From Beijerinckiaceae bacterium (lineage in GTDB: Bacteria > Pseudomonadota > Alphaproteobacteria > Rhizobiales > Beijerinckiaceae): a DNA stretch of 64,000 nucleotides. How positions within the stretch are numbered: position 1 is the first letter of the stretch; the number at the start of each line of letters is the position of its first letter. Location: assembly GCA_947453155.1 (NCBI GenBank), contig CANGFE010000003.1, positions 1-64,000 on the forward strand, given 5' to 3'. This document shows, in pieces, positions 12,079-37,153 of this stretch. The notes under the pieces are model-generated. The model searched no databases. It saw nothing but the letters and a program-made list of their open reading frames with translations, and was not told the DNA's origin. The position numbers and the translations under genes are program-made.

Positions 12079-12693
12079 TTATTGATGCGCAAATATGTCC
12101 TGCTCAGGCCAGCCCAGCAAGTCGAGGCGGGCGCGCATAGGCAGAAAAGCAAAACATGCCGCCGCGACCTCTGTGCGGCCTTCACGCACGAGCATGGCAT
12201 CCAGCTTGTCACGCAGCGCATGGAGATGGAGAACGTCGGAGGCTGCATAAGACAGCTGCGCCTCGCTCAAAGCCGTGGCTGCCCAATCGGAAGATTGCTG
12301 CTGCTTCGACAGTTCAACGCCCAAAAGCTCGCGGGTCAGGTCCTTGAGACCATGACGATCTGTGTAGGTGCGGACCAATTTGGACGCGATTTTGGTGCAA
12401 TAGACGCCGTTCACAGGCGAGCCAAACGCGTGCTCAAGCACCGCAATATCAAAGCGGCCGAAATGGAAGATCTTCGTCACGCCTTGATCTGCAAGGAGCT
12501 TCTGAAGGTTCGGGGCGCTGGTCTGGCCCTTGGCAATCTGGACAACATCCGCCGTTCCATCGCCTGCGGAGAGCTGCACAACGCAGAGCCGATCCCGATG
12601 CGGATTGAGGCCGAGGGTCTCGGTATCGATCGCAACGCTGGCACCAAAAGCGGCTCCGGCTGGCAAATCGCCCTGATGAACGCGAATGGTCAT
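12079..12693 (-). CDS. Ribonuclease D-like 3'-5' exonuclease
   Basis: DEDDy-family 3'-5' exonuclease, probably acting on tRNA or small RNA ends. The 204 residues hold only the nuclease fold: Exo I with VAIDTETLGL, Exo II in FHFGRFDIAVL, and Exo III with LSYAASDVLHL, where the tyrosine and aspartate are the expected catalytic pair. The HRDC domains of the 375-residue enterobacterial RNase D are absent, as is common in alphaproteobacteria. I chose ATG 12693; an upstream in-frame start would add 23 uncharacteristic residues. It appears to be the first gene of the lptCAB-rpoN-hpf-ptsN run. Confidence 0.88.
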   Translation of the reverse strand: MTIRVHQGDLPAGAAFGASVAIDTETLGLNPHRDRLCVVQLSAGDGTADVVQIAKGQTSAPNLQKLLADQGVTKIFHFGRFDIAVLEHAFGSPVNGVYCTKIASKLVRTYTDRHGLKDLTRELLGVELSKQQQSSDWAATALSEAQLSYAASDVLHLHALRDKLDAMLVREGRTEVAAACFAFLPMRARLDLLGWPEQDIFAHQ

Positions 12694-12823: not shown

Positions 12824-12852
12824 TTGAGACGTGTGAATTGGTCCATTATACC
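12824..12852 (+). promoter_or_regulatory. Candidate sigma-70-type promoter for the HTH/receiver gene
   Basis: TTGAGA (12824-12829), a 17-base spacer and TATACC (12847-12852) match the -35/-10 pattern at 5/6 and 4/6 positions. The predicted start of transcription near 12859 would favour translation from GTG 12881 over the upstream ATG 12860. This is a visual match only. Confidence 0.35.
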
Positions 12853-12880: not shown

Positions 12881-13522
12881 GTGACACCGGCACAAGTCAG
12901 AATGGCGCGAGCAGCGGTCAATTGGTCGCTCGACCAGCTGGCGCAAGCTGCCGGCGTTCACCGCAACACCATCCATAATTTCGAAACTGGCCGTTATTCC
13001 GGCAGCCCCGAAAAGCTCCGCGCCGTGCGCCAAGCTCTGCAACAGGCCGGTGTCGAATTTATCGGCGAGACTGAAAATGCGGGCGTACGCCTACGCACAG
13101 CTCCCACGGCGACCCAAATGGCTGTCGCGGCTGGACTGGCCGTTGCCGGAACAGCCGGAGCAACTGCCGCGCTCGGTCACAGTGTCCTGGTGGTCAATTC
13201 AGCGCCCGAAGTACGCTCGCTCGCCCGTTCCATTCTGGAAGAGCTAAGCCTGAATGTGGTCGAGGCGGAGAATGGCGAAGAAGCGCTGATGATCCTGCAA
13301 GAGCAGGCACTCAGTCTCTCCGCTGTGCTCACCGAATCCGCCATGCCGGGCATGGATGGGATTCTGCTAGCCAATATCATTATGAAAACTTGGCCGGCCA
13401 TCAAAGTCGTGCTGTCAACGGGCGCAGCCGTTGTGCTCGACCGTCAATTGCCGGCCAATACGGATGTCATCGCCAAGCCTTGGCGCATCAGCGAAATGCT
13501 GCGTTTGTTCAAAGGCGTTTGA
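12881..13522 (+). CDS. XRE-type HTH protein fused to a degenerate receiver domain
   Basis: A predicted DNA-binding regulator of 213 residues. Residues 1-63 form an XRE/Cro helix-turn-helix (SLDQLAQAAGVHRNTIHNFETG). An alanine/glycine-rich hydrophobic linker follows (about 77-99). Residues 101-213 fold like a CheY receiver, ending in the conserved lysine IAKPW (Lys199) and with the switch Ser/Thr at 179-180. The acidic pair after strand 1 is Asn106-Ser107 instead of two aspartates, and the phospho-acceptor position in LTESAMPGMDG is Glu152. It therefore probably cannot be phosphorylated and may be locked in one state. I prefer GTG 12881, which follows GGGGTGG; ATG 12860 is possible. It is a lone gene, with its stop one base from the convergent reductase. 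No target is known. Confidence 0.75.
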   Translation: MTPAQVRMARAAVNWSLDQLAQAAGVHRNTIHNFETGRYSGSPEKLRAVRQALQQAGVEFIGETENAGVRLRTAPTATQMAVAAGLAVAGTAGATAALGHSVLVVNSAPEVRSLARSILEELSLNVVEAENGEEALMILQEQALSLSAVLTESAMPGMDGILLANIIMKTWPAIKVVLSTGAAVVLDRQLPANTDVIAKPWRISEMLRLFKGV

Positions 13523-13523
13523 T

Positions 13524-14564
13524 CTAACCCATCGTTGGGTCGAGCACGATCTTTCCCATCCCCGCATCTGCTTCCATCATCGCATGGGCTTTTGGCGCCT
13601 GCGACAGCGGCAAGACATGGGCAATGCGCACTTTGATTTTACCTTCGGCTGCAGCTGCAAAACATTTCGGCCGATCAGCATCACGCGCTCCGGGCATGCC
13701 TTTGATCGTGATCTTATGATCATAGAGATGGAAGAAATTGATCATCACATTCGGCCCGCCATGCGCGCCTGCGGTAACCAAGCGGCCCTTTTCGCCAAGC
13801 GTCAAAAAGGCATCCGGCAAAACTTTGGGATTGGCGATATTGTCATAAAGGACATGTACGCCTTTGCCTTCAGTGATGCGCATCACTTCGGCGCGCAAAT
13901 CCTGCGTTGAATAATCAATCGCATAATCCGCACCGAGCTCCAGACCCGCATCCGCACGATCGCGCGAACCAGCCGTTGTAATGACGCGCGCGCCAATCAC
14001 ATGTTTGGCGATCTGAATACCAACGCTGCCGAGATTGCCGCTGGCGCCCATAATCAGGACCCATTCACCGGCTTTCAATTCGGCAACATTGACCAGCAGA
14101 TTCCAGGCTGTCGGGCAATGACGCATGACAACAGCGGCTTCATGAAAGCCAAGACCATCGGGCAAAGCAAAGGCAACGGAAGCGGGCACGCAAACCTTTT
14201 CAGCAAATCCGCCGGGGCGCTTGATGCCCATCATGCCATTGCGCTCGGTGCCGCCCGTGCCATCTTCATTGCAAGGATCAAGCGGCATGCGACCAGCTGC
14301 ACAAACGCGATCACCGACTTTCCATTTGGTGACGCCGGGCCCGATCGCATCCACAATGCCCGCGCAATCAACGCCAGGAATAAGCGGCAATTCGACACCG
14401 CGCTGCGCTTGTTCGCCACGGCGCACAGCCACGTCCAAAACGCGATTGACGGTTGCAGCATGAACAGCAATGCGGATTTCGCCGTGACGGGGCTGCGGAT
14501 CAGGCAGATCCTCATATTTCATCACATCCGGCGCGCCGAATTGGTGAATGACAATCGCCTTCAT
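13524..14564 (-). CDS. Zinc-independent MDR-family NAD(P)-dependent oxidoreductase
   Basis: Medium-chain dehydrogenase/reductase related to quinone oxidoreductases. The 346 residues have an N-terminal GroES-like domain (about 1-140, with GVDCAGIVDAIGPGV) and a Rossmann domain with the nucleotide loop MGASGNLGSVGIQ (about 172-184). The catalytic and structural zinc cysteine sets of alcohol dehydrogenases are not evident. The second of two tandem ATGs (14564) is better spaced from GGGAGG. It follows the class II aldolase gene on the same strand, separated by a hairpin. Substrate is unknown; the neighbourhood suggests catabolism of a small carbonyl or sugar acid. Confidence 0.8.
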   Translation of the reverse strand: MKAIVIHQFGAPDVMKYEDLPDPQPRHGEIRIAVHAATVNRVLDVAVRRGEQAQRGVELPLIPGVDCAGIVDAIGPGVTKWKVGDRVCAAGRMPLDPCNEDGTGGTERNGMMGIKRPGGFAEKVCVPASVAFALPDGLGFHEAAVVMRHCPTAWNLLVNVAELKAGEWVLIMGASGNLGSVGIQIAKHVIGARVITTAGSRDRADAGLELGADYAIDYSTQDLRAEVMRITEGKGVHVLYDNIANPKVLPDAFLTLGEKGRLVTAGAHGGPNVMINFFHLYDHKITIKGMPGARDADRPKCFAAAAEGKIKVRIAHVLPLSQAPKAHAMMEADAGMGKIVLDPTMG

Positions 14565-14590
14565 CATATCCTCCCAATATCTTTATGAAC

Positions 14591-35203: not shown

Positions 35204-35779
35204 TCAGCGCGGCGCTCGCTTGGCGAGAATACGCTGCAACGTACGCCGATGCATATTGAGGCGGCGTGCTGTTTCGGAAACATTCCGGCCGCACAATTCA
35301 TAAATGCGCTGGATATGCTCCCAGCGCACACGATCCGCCGACATGGGGTTTTCGGGCAGCTCCGCCTTGTCATGCTGGATGGCCATGAGCGCATTATAAA
35401 TTTCATCCGCATCAGCGGGCTTGGCGAGATAATCAAAGGCACCAAGTTTCACCGCCGTCACTGCGGTGGCGATATTTCCATAGCCGGTGAGAATAATGCC
35501 ACGCGAGTCTGGACGAAGCGCTTTGAGCTCGGAAATAATATCGAGCCCGTTACCATCACCAAGGCGCATATCAACCACCGCAAAAGCCGGTGCGGTGCGA
35601 CGAATCGTGGCCAGACCTTCTGCCACAGAATCAACGGCGGTGACTTGAAAGCCTCGGCTCTCCATCGCGCGGGTCAGGCGCGTCAGAAAAGGGCGATCAT
35701 CATCAGCAAGCAACAAGGAGCGATCCTCGAAGCCTGCCAATTCGCTGCTCACATCTGCCGTCTTGATCAGATCATTCAT
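35204..35779 (-). CDS. regA: Redox response regulator RegA/ActR/PrrA
   Basis: Global redox response regulator that controls respiration, nitrogen and carbon fixation genes in alphaproteobacteria. The 191 residues combine a receiver domain (acidic residues in LLLADDDRPF, phospho-acceptor Asp70 in AVVDMRLGDG, lysine in YLAKPAD) and a Fis-type helix-turn-helix whose sequence VSETARRLNMHRRTLQRILAK is almost invariant across the family. It starts three bases after regB ends and is therefore co-transcribed. The symbol varies by genus (actR, prrA, regR). Confidence 0.96.
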   Translation of the reverse strand: MNDLIKTADVSSELAGFEDRSLLLADDDRPFLTRLTRAMESRGFQVTAVDSVAEGLATIRRTAPAFAVVDMRLGDGNGLDIISELKALRPDSRGIILTGYGNIATAVTAVKLGAFDYLAKPADADEIYNALMAIQHDKAELPENPMSADRVRWEHIQRIYELCGRNVSETARRLNMHRRTLQRILAKRAPR

Positions 35780-35782
35780 GGT

Positions 35783-37153
35783 TCAACCCTTGGCCTGTCT
35801 CTGGATATAGGCCTCGATCAGTGTTTTTTCATCATCCGTCTTCGTGCCAGACTCATTTGGTTCAAAGAGATGGCGCGGCCAAACGACGCTGATCCGGGCC
35901 CCCGTCTCTGGCGAGGGGCGATTGGAAACTGCCACGCTTGCGCCAGATCGTTCCAACAACGTTTTCGCGATGAAGAGGCCAAGACCCAGACCGCCTTCTT
36001 CGGATTTGGCGCGCCGATCAGGTCCGCGGGTGGAAATATAAGGATCTCCCAAGCGCGCCAAAACTTCCGGCCTGAATCCGGGGCCATCATCTTCAATAGT
36101 GAGGCGCACTTGCGCAGACCCCCAACGGATGATGATCGCAACACGCGTTGTCGCAAAATCTATCGCATTCTCAACGAGATTCCCGAGCCCATAAAGAATG
36201 CCCGGATTGCGTTGACACACCGGTTCAACACCATCGCCCGATTTTGAAATATCGATGCTGACACCAAAATCCCTCTGGGGCGCAACCACCTCTTCGACAA
36301 GGTGCGACAATGTCATGCGATCCAGCATGCTGGCGCTGTCATTGCCCAGAGAGGCCAATTTCCCAAGAATCGTCCGACAGCGCTGAACCTCTTGCGCGAG
36401 CAAAGCCACATCGGCGGCGGCTTCGCCATCTGCGGGCAAAAGCTTGGCAAGATCTTTGACAACGAGCGTGATTGTGGCGAGCGGCGTCCCCAATTCATGC
36501 GCGGCGGCGGCTGCAAGCCCGTCAAGCTGGGTGAGGTGTTGCTCACGCGCCAGAACCAACTCTGTTGCCGCCAAAGCATCCGACAGGCGACGCGCTTCAT
36601 CGGCCACACGCGCCGCGTATATGCCAATGAACGCCGTACCCAGCACAATGGCGATCCAGATTCCGGCCACATAAAGGGTTGGCAAGGTCAGGGGCTGGCC
36701 CGCCATCCAGGGCAGCGGATAGTGAAAAACCGTCAAGTGGCTAGCGAGAGCCACGACGAGCCCGCCCAGCAGCAGGGTCGCCGTCGCCGTCAGAGACACC
36801 GCCGCGATCATAACCGGGGCCAGGAAGAGCATGGCGAAGGGGTTTTGCAGCCCGCCGGTCAGATAGAGCAGGCCAGAGAGTTGCAAAACGTCATAGCAGA
36901 GCAGGAAAAGGGCGAGCCTATCCCCGAGCCGATAGCTTGCAGAAAACCGGAGGCGGAGCCCGATATTAAGCCAAGCGGAGGCAGAAATCGCGACAAAACA
37001 AAGACCTAGCGGCAAGGCGAAGCCGAGCCCGAAATAGGTCGTGAGGATGGCCAAGAGCTGTCCGGCCACGGCCAGCCAGCGTAATCGGACGATCGTATCG
37101 ACCCTGAGCCGCCGCGCACGTCCACCAAGGTTCAGGTCAGCTAAATCTCGCAT
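35783..37153 (-). CDS. regB: Redox sensor histidine kinase RegB/ActS/PrrB
   Basis: Membrane sensor kinase that phosphorylates RegA. The 456-residue protein has about six membrane segments (25-185) with the ubiquinone-binding GGLQNPF motif (100-106), the H-box AAAHELGTPLATI with phosphorylated His219, the redox-active cysteine in EVQRCRTILGKL (Cys259), and N, G1 and G2 boxes (NLVENAIDFA, DDGPGFRP, GGLGLGLFIAKTLLERSGA). The spacing matches my memory of Rhodobacter RegB (His225, Cys265), offset by six. I chose ATG 37153. It is divergent from phaZ. Confidence 0.96.
   Translation of the reverse strand: MRDLADLNLGGRARRLRVDTIVRLRWLAVAGQLLAILTTYFGLGFALPLGLCFVAISASAWLNIGLRLRFSASYRLGDRLALFLLCYDVLQLSGLLYLTGGLQNPFAMLFLAPVMIAAVSLTATATLLLGGLVVALASHLTVFHYPLPWMAGQPLTLPTLYVAGIWIAIVLGTAFIGIYAARVADEARRLSDALAATELVLAREQHLTQLDGLAAAAAHELGTPLATITLVVKDLAKLLPADGEAAADVALLAQEVQRCRTILGKLASLGNDSASMLDRMTLSHLVEEVVAPQRDFGVSIDISKSGDGVEPVCQRNPGILYGLGNLVENAIDFATTRVAIIIRWGSAQVRLTIEDDGPGFRPEVLARLGDPYISTRGPDRRAKSEEGGLGLGLFIAKTLLERSGASVAVSNRPSPETGARISVVWPRHLFEPNESGTKTDDEKTLIEAYIQRQAKG

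Follow-up and report, generated by a model that had tools for sequence, protein, structure and literature searches.

An XRE-family protein fused to a pseudo-receiver domain in one clade of Beijerinckiaceae, with an exchangeable Asp or Glu at the acceptor position

Organisation of the XRE-PsR locus

The window analysed here is a 64,000-nucleotide stretch of a Beijerinckiaceae genome. The gene under study, XRE-PsR, lies on its plus strand at 12881..13522 and encodes a protein of 213 amino acids that consists of a helix-turn-helix (HTH) domain, a linker and a pseudo-receiver. It begins with a GTG codon, which is common to all 13 orthologues. The HTH domain (residues 4-57, 12890..13051, plus strand) scored over the cut-off with two Pfam profiles, HTH_31 (36.1 bits, cut-off 27, residues 4-57) and HTH_3 (31.5 bits, cut-off 23, residues 6-54); the HTH_3-type match places it in the XRE/Cro-CI family. 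It is followed by a linker (about residues 74-98, 13100..13174, plus strand) and by the receiver part (residues 102-207, 13184..13501, plus strand), which was recognised by the Response_reg profile with 51.0 bits (cut-off 30.2). The receiver contains the motifs MPGMDG (155-160) and AKPW (198-201), as well as N106 and S107 at the site of the acid pair, E152 at the acceptor position, T180, K199 and, three residues before this lysine (K-3), V196. The reading frame, the motifs and all of these residues apart from V196 had been described in the original prediction, and the Pfam matches confirmed its order of domains, XRE HTH first and receiver last, which it called unusual.

The linker is rich in Ala and Gly, as predicted, and its length varies: the uncharged run comprises 13 to 24 residues across the 13 orthologues. 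The maximum hydropathy over 19 residues ranges from 1.34 to 2.06 and reaches 1.6, the usual threshold, in 11 of them. A membrane-spanning segment was rejected as a family trait because four orthologues have only 13-14 uncharged residues in this place; some membrane association of the linker may occur.

A probable sigma70-like promoter, TTGAGA - 17 bp - TATACC, was found by eye from the alignment at 12824..12852 on the plus strand. The TATA element is present in 13/13 orthologues and TTGAG in nine, with one base off in the remaining four. As candidates for an autoregulatory operator, perfect inverted repeats whose arms measure at least 6 were sought in the 190 bp upstream of the gene. Such repeats occur in 4/13 upstream regions, each at another distance, and no perfect dyad shared among the 13 orthologues was seen, so a shared operator of this perfect form was rejected.

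The divergent neighbour (12079..12693, minus strand) is presumably a ribonuclease D-like 3'-5' exonuclease (rnd-like), and the convergent neighbour (13524..14567, minus strand) is one that we take to be an NADPH:quinone oxidoreductase-like protein. The two genes flank XRE-PsR in 12 of the 13 genomes, including G012, in which a dehydrogenase-like gene is inserted on the rnd side, and G008, in which rnd is interrupted by the contig end. In the thirteenth (G027), rnd adjoins XRE-PsR and the contig ends short of the other neighbour. None of the adjoining genes codes for a kinase, and to this extent the absence of a nearby kinase noted in the original prediction holds. The sole match to a kinase ATPase domain in the window (35873-36187) is about 22 kb away; it lies beside a receiver match (35387-35713), both on the minus strand.

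Distribution and inheritance of the fusion

A full-length orthologue was found in at least 13 of 51 genomes of the same genus, the genome of the window included. This count is a lower bound because several of the genomes are incomplete. The other 12 proteins are 76-95% identical to that of the window. In a tree of the two neighbouring genes (20 rows, two of them with one gene only), 14 genomes group together with a support of 93/98; they include G043, whose placement the tree does not fix. At this site of G043 (L142, G043:C3:11900-12250) the matches to rnd and the quinone oxidoreductase gene are 110 bp apart with no gene between them, and no remnant of XRE-PsR was seen there by eye. Outside the clade, the gene is absent from the rnd flank in all 17 genomes that were read (of 37). 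The shared flanks and the tree of neighbouring genes allowed us to conclude that XRE-PsR is a single gene specific to this clade and passed on vertically, and that G043 has either lost it or never carried it.

The search was extended by similarity to the window protein in samples of the family (298 genomes), order (397) and class (385), which overlap and are partial; none gave a full-length match outside the genus. In the family sample, 38 genomes had a match at E<=1e-20, of which five were full-length and belonged to the window genus, and no alignment in the other 33 covered both domains. The receiver match that starts earliest in this sample (L052, position 46) belongs to a protein that holds a receiver only. 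In the order sample, four genomes had a match at E<=1e-24, namely the window's own full-length protein and three HTH-only proteins, and the sole match of the class sample was the window's own. No XRE-receiver fusion was present in 15 stretches picked among the genus-search matches listed. A scan of a genome contig collection with two peptide patterns returned 12 full-length orthologues and three HTH-only matches, the latter in records of Limimaricola and Rhodobacter. The orthologues all come from metagenome-assembled genomes, of which five are titled Beijerinckiaceae, five Hyphomicrobiales and two Rhizobiales. In the plasmid collection 494 records matched and none covered 80% of the protein, the widest match (Sinorhizobium) being a single-domain receiver; 56 pattern matches in viral contigs included no relatives. 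The literature search, judged mainly from titles and the beginnings of abstracts, returned no paper on an XRE-receiver fusion. One protein of the genus (L125, G044:C153), of about 130 amino acids from its ATG, combines a related HTH with a hydrophobic, Ala-rich stretch after it and lacks a receiver; it is a possible relative of the HTH-linker part.

Fold, selection and pocket of the receiver domain

The structure of the protein was modelled with AlphaFold2. With 71 alignment rows the five models ranged from 68.4 to 87.5 in mean pLDDT, and the best of them (87.5) contains the HTH helices and all receiver elements; a run with 13 close rows gave a pLDDT of 43 and was set aside. In the model, alpha4 is very short (residues 183-187), and residues 83-96 of the linker have a pLDDT under 50. 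The modelled receiver aligned with solved receivers at Z scores of up to 19.6 (3jte, 1.2 A over 114 residues) in structure alignments (VIA-align) whose rows span residues 97-213 only, that is, the protein without its HTH. The Response_reg profile and the (beta-alpha)5 fold together identify the domain as a CheY-like receiver, and the modelling proposed with the original prediction recovered a receiver fold.

The open frame is intact in all 13 orthologues. The median dN/dS was 0.026 for the HTH (residues 2-61), 0.32 for the linker (62-99) and about 0.10 for the receiver, as calculated with our own Nei-Gojobori script. Synonymous sites are close to saturation, and after removal of the pairs beyond it 69, 64 and 75 of 78 pairs, respectively, entered the medians. 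This indicates that the receiver is kept by purifying selection and is not decaying.

The residues of the phosphorylation site differ in how well they are kept. Position 107 is Ser in 13/13 orthologues and position 106 is Asn in 12 (Asp in G003), with one change as the minimum on the protein tree. An intact acid pair, which in close relatives would have pointed to local decay in the window protein, occurs in none of the 13, which favours a real feature. The K-3 position is occupied by V, L, M or I and is never aromatic. The switch residue Thr180 is invariant, Lys199 is present in 12/13 (Arg in G004), and positions T+1, D+4 and D+8 look receiver-like. Position 152 is Asp in eight orthologues and Glu in five (G000, G037, G009, G027, G008). 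This distribution needs at least three changes on the protein tree, which was built with site 152 included, and likewise on the neighbour-gene tree, the count being free of direction. Thus, of the three replacements described in the original prediction, Asn106 and Ser107 are conserved and Glu152 is not. The Glu codon is unlikely to be a sequencing error, as the same GAA is present in G037, a separate assembly with a 95% identical protein; three more orthologues have GAA or GAG at this codon. Positions 110 and 141 also exchange Asp and Glu.

The K-3 aromatic residue serves in Y-T coupling, the relay from the switch Thr to the alpha4-beta5-alpha5 face, and is found in most, not all, true receivers. 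For comparison, we used 28 other receivers: 20 that the family search had returned, 7 from that of the genus, and L138. Of these, 27 have the first acid, 26 the second and 27 the acceptor Asp; Thr/Ser is present in 27, Lys in 26 (one gap) and a K-3 aromatic residue in 25 (one gap). As the metal site and the relay are mostly intact in this set, their loss is a trait of the fused clade, within which Asp and Glu have in addition replaced each other repeatedly at position 152.

By these features, the window protein has the switch Thr and the Lys of a canonical receiver and lacks the DD1/DD2 acid pair, the acceptor Asp and the K-3 aromatic residue. A pseudo-receiver is defined in the available text of PMC12632262 as a domain recognised as a receiver but without the residues needed for phosphotransfer, and the domain described here is of this kind. 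With Glu152 the window protein is also an aspartate-less receiver. Since eight of the orthologues have Asp152, this state is no family trait, and most members are pseudo-receivers that are not aspartate-less. A KPW-type receiver of G030 (L018 / L141) is partly degenerate as well: it has Asp-Ala at the acid pair and no MPG loop.

We also compared 15 stretches of the receiver between the 13 orthologues and 20 intact receivers of the family, two sets unmatched for divergence. In 10 stretches the orthologues resembled one another more closely than the intact receivers did, in four less closely, and in one the two sets were equal. Their likeness was lowest in beta5 (0.54) and alpha4 (0.58), for which the intact set gave 0.82 and 0.69; the largest gain was in alpha5 (0.91 vs 0.55), and alpha2 was likewise more alike (0.81 vs 0.62). 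The alpha4-beta5 region is part of the usual phosphorylation-driven dimer face. The pattern gives a hint that alpha4-beta5 may be relaxed and that alpha5, alpha1 and alpha3-beta4 may be kept, and it is no sharp signal for a contact face.

A second, single-domain pseudo-receiver of the KPW type was observed in seven genomes of the clade (L279-L285 in G036, G009, G004, G012, G010, G008 and G003). Matches to the G036 protein at E<=1e-15 occur in 7 of the 51 genomes, all of them among the 13 with the fusion (Fisher p 1.5e-5, uncorrected for shared ancestry). By eye, none of the seven has an acidic residue at the first acid position, one keeps the Lys, and the MPG loop has been lost; four carry Glu and three Asp at the acceptor position, and the PLDLLIEAER tail is invariant. 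Near three of the seven loci there is a receiver-like frame with a DDD start, as seen in the first 90 letters of the frames. The acceptor letter is the same in this protein and at position 152 of the fusion in 3/7 genomes, so the two residues do not track each other. No match was obtained in G019, which is listed as 100% complete and has the fusion; hence the single-domain protein is no obligatory partner of it. This second pseudo-receiver shows again that Asp and Glu drift once the metal site is gone.

Possible roles and comparison with known systems

Taken together, we consider it fairly probable that XRE-PsR is a phosphorylation-independent XRE regulator whose pseudo-receiver serves as a contact or dimerisation surface. 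It would be an orphan XRE-family protein, with DNA binding predicted from its HTH, fused to a pseudo-receiver that folds normally. Because the acid pair for Mg2+ (replaced by Asn-Ser) and the aromatic relay residue are missing, switching by Asp phosphorylation would not be expected. The acidic residue at position 152, Asp or Glu, would be retained for structure, next to Thr180 and Lys199 in the emptied pocket. The domain would be kept because one of its sides makes contact, with alpha1, alpha3-beta4 and alpha5 as candidates, and this contact could be either dimerisation of the HTH or docking of a partner protein, so that output would be set by expression or by that partner. Reuse of the receiver for contact with a putative partner protein fits best among the alternatives of the original prediction. 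Another pseudo-receiver, FrzS, docks its partner by alpha3-beta4-alpha4 according to the available part of PMC12632262, where the on-off switching of pseudo-receivers in bacteria is termed a mystery.

A narrower version, possible though doubtful, gives the pseudo-receiver only the passive role of a scaffold for dimerisation; the protein would then repress or activate constitutively and be controlled through its own synthesis. The gene has its own sigma70-like promoter, no kinase lies beside it, the HTH is nearly invariant, and many atypical regulators dimerise without phosphorylation (PMC12632262, as far as available). However, the upstream region offers no shared perfect dyad for autoregulation, and the data point to no particular dimerising face.

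It is less likely that the domain acts as a decoy, or as a surface for a partner, and connects the XRE regulator to two-component signalling by pairing with another receiver, a pseudo-receiver or a kinase. If so, phosphorylation elsewhere would set DNA binding by a regulator that itself is never phosphorylated. The single-domain pseudo-receiver, which in the genus is found only with the fusion, would be a candidate example of such pairing.

The original prediction put forward Glu152 as a phosphomimetic and the protein as a regulator locked in one state. In the form considered here, this Glu would hold the receiver in its active form and make the HTH constitutively active. The window protein and four more orthologues have Glu152 and keep T180 and K199, and an Asp-to-Glu change can partly activate some response regulators (available parts of PMC12632262 and PMC4395418). 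On the other hand, eight orthologues carry Asp with the same dead metal site, the residue has changed at least three times, and Asp and Glu also exchange at positions 110 and 141. The reading is also weakened by the K-3 aromatic residue, missing throughout, and by the poor conservation of alpha4-beta5. In addition, DNA binding by ChxR survives replacement of its Glu alone (PMC4395418, in part), and experiments that asked whether activity stems from the acceptor-site residue were in some cases negative (PMC12632262, in part). As Glu152 is not fixed and the second pseudo-receiver varies between Asp and Glu too, Glu152 is probably not a lock, and we regard this explanation as improbable. Orthologues that share a dead metal site and differ in Asp or Glu provide a natural test of the phosphomimetic hypothesis within one family.

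Equally improbable is ligand sensing, in which the emptied pocket would bind a small ligand or anion. Retention of T180, of K199 and of an acid at position 152 while the metal site is gone would agree with it, and the pseudo-receiver of the kinase ShkA binds c-di-GMP (PMC7010744, available part), but the Asp/Glu exchange argues against a tight ligand geometry. As part of the phosphate pocket is kept (T180, K199, T+1, D+4, D+8), some residual chemistry or anion binding may occur there. It is very unlikely that Asp152 of the eight Asp-bearing orthologues, which keep the Thr and mostly the Lys, is still phosphorylated by a metal-independent or otherwise unusual route that the Glu species have lost, given that neither the acid pair nor the K-3 aromatic residue is intact in any of the 13. 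Finally, decay of the receiver on its way to loss, which the empty site of G043 might recall, is rejected because of the receiver dN/dS of about 0.10 across the clade, with 13 intact frames.

The preferred reading, a phosphorylation-independent regulator with a contact surface, has counterparts among described proteins. CosR is one of the atypical response regulators with a pseudo-receiver, and in those that bind DNA the output domain generally comes after the receiver; in XRE-PsR the XRE HTH is first and the pseudo-receiver last. ChxR, HP1043, RitR, GlnR, FrzS and NblR, as far as the available sources describe them, likewise have a receiver fold with catalytic residues replaced and are, like XRE-PsR, orphans with no adjoining kinase. 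Pseudo-receivers are common: they account for about 6% of the receivers in one bacterial set, and about 80% of them lack an acidic residue at DD2 and about 20% at DD1 (PMC12632262, in part). In aspartate-less receivers the acceptor is most often replaced by Glu (PMC4395418, in part), and the available parts of PMC12632262 and PMC4395418 name Asn at DD2 and Glu at the acceptor Asp as common replacements. According to PMC4395418, in part, 53% of receivers stand alone or have a C-terminal DNA-binding extension. The pocket replacements of XRE-PsR are typical of known pseudo-receivers, and its XRE-first order and clade-restricted fusion are less usual.

An XRE regulator is also encoded near an NADPH:quinone oxidoreductase gene in Cereibacter sphaeroides. 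This protein, XrpA, is a repressor of ctrA and chpT and, unlike XRE-PsR, has 120 amino acids, a C-terminus that is short and helical, and no receiver; we liken the two from its description in the available text of PMC11999139. The HTH of XRE-PsR is homologous to that of short alphaproteobacterial XRE proteins ending in ...GVRLR, which gave HTH-only matches in five genomes of the family sample and in two more of the order sample. Of the seven HTH-only proteins that were read, six are short and stop just past the GVRL stretch that they share with XRE-PsR. All seven are without a recognisable receiver, L039 having a longer, different C-terminal part. The closest receiver matches outside the genus are KPW-type receivers of Beijerinckiaceae (L041-L060), which are 37.5-42.2% identical and have the same WP and KPW signatures. 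Unlike XRE-PsR, all 20 have the acid pair E-D, the acceptor D, S, K, and F at K-3. Their frames of 138-252 amino acids were taken as single-domain, and the four that were read over their whole length showed no HTH. The order of XRE-PsR, with the XRE part first and the pseudo-receiver last, suggests that a common small HTH protein acquired a receiver at its end as a plain module.
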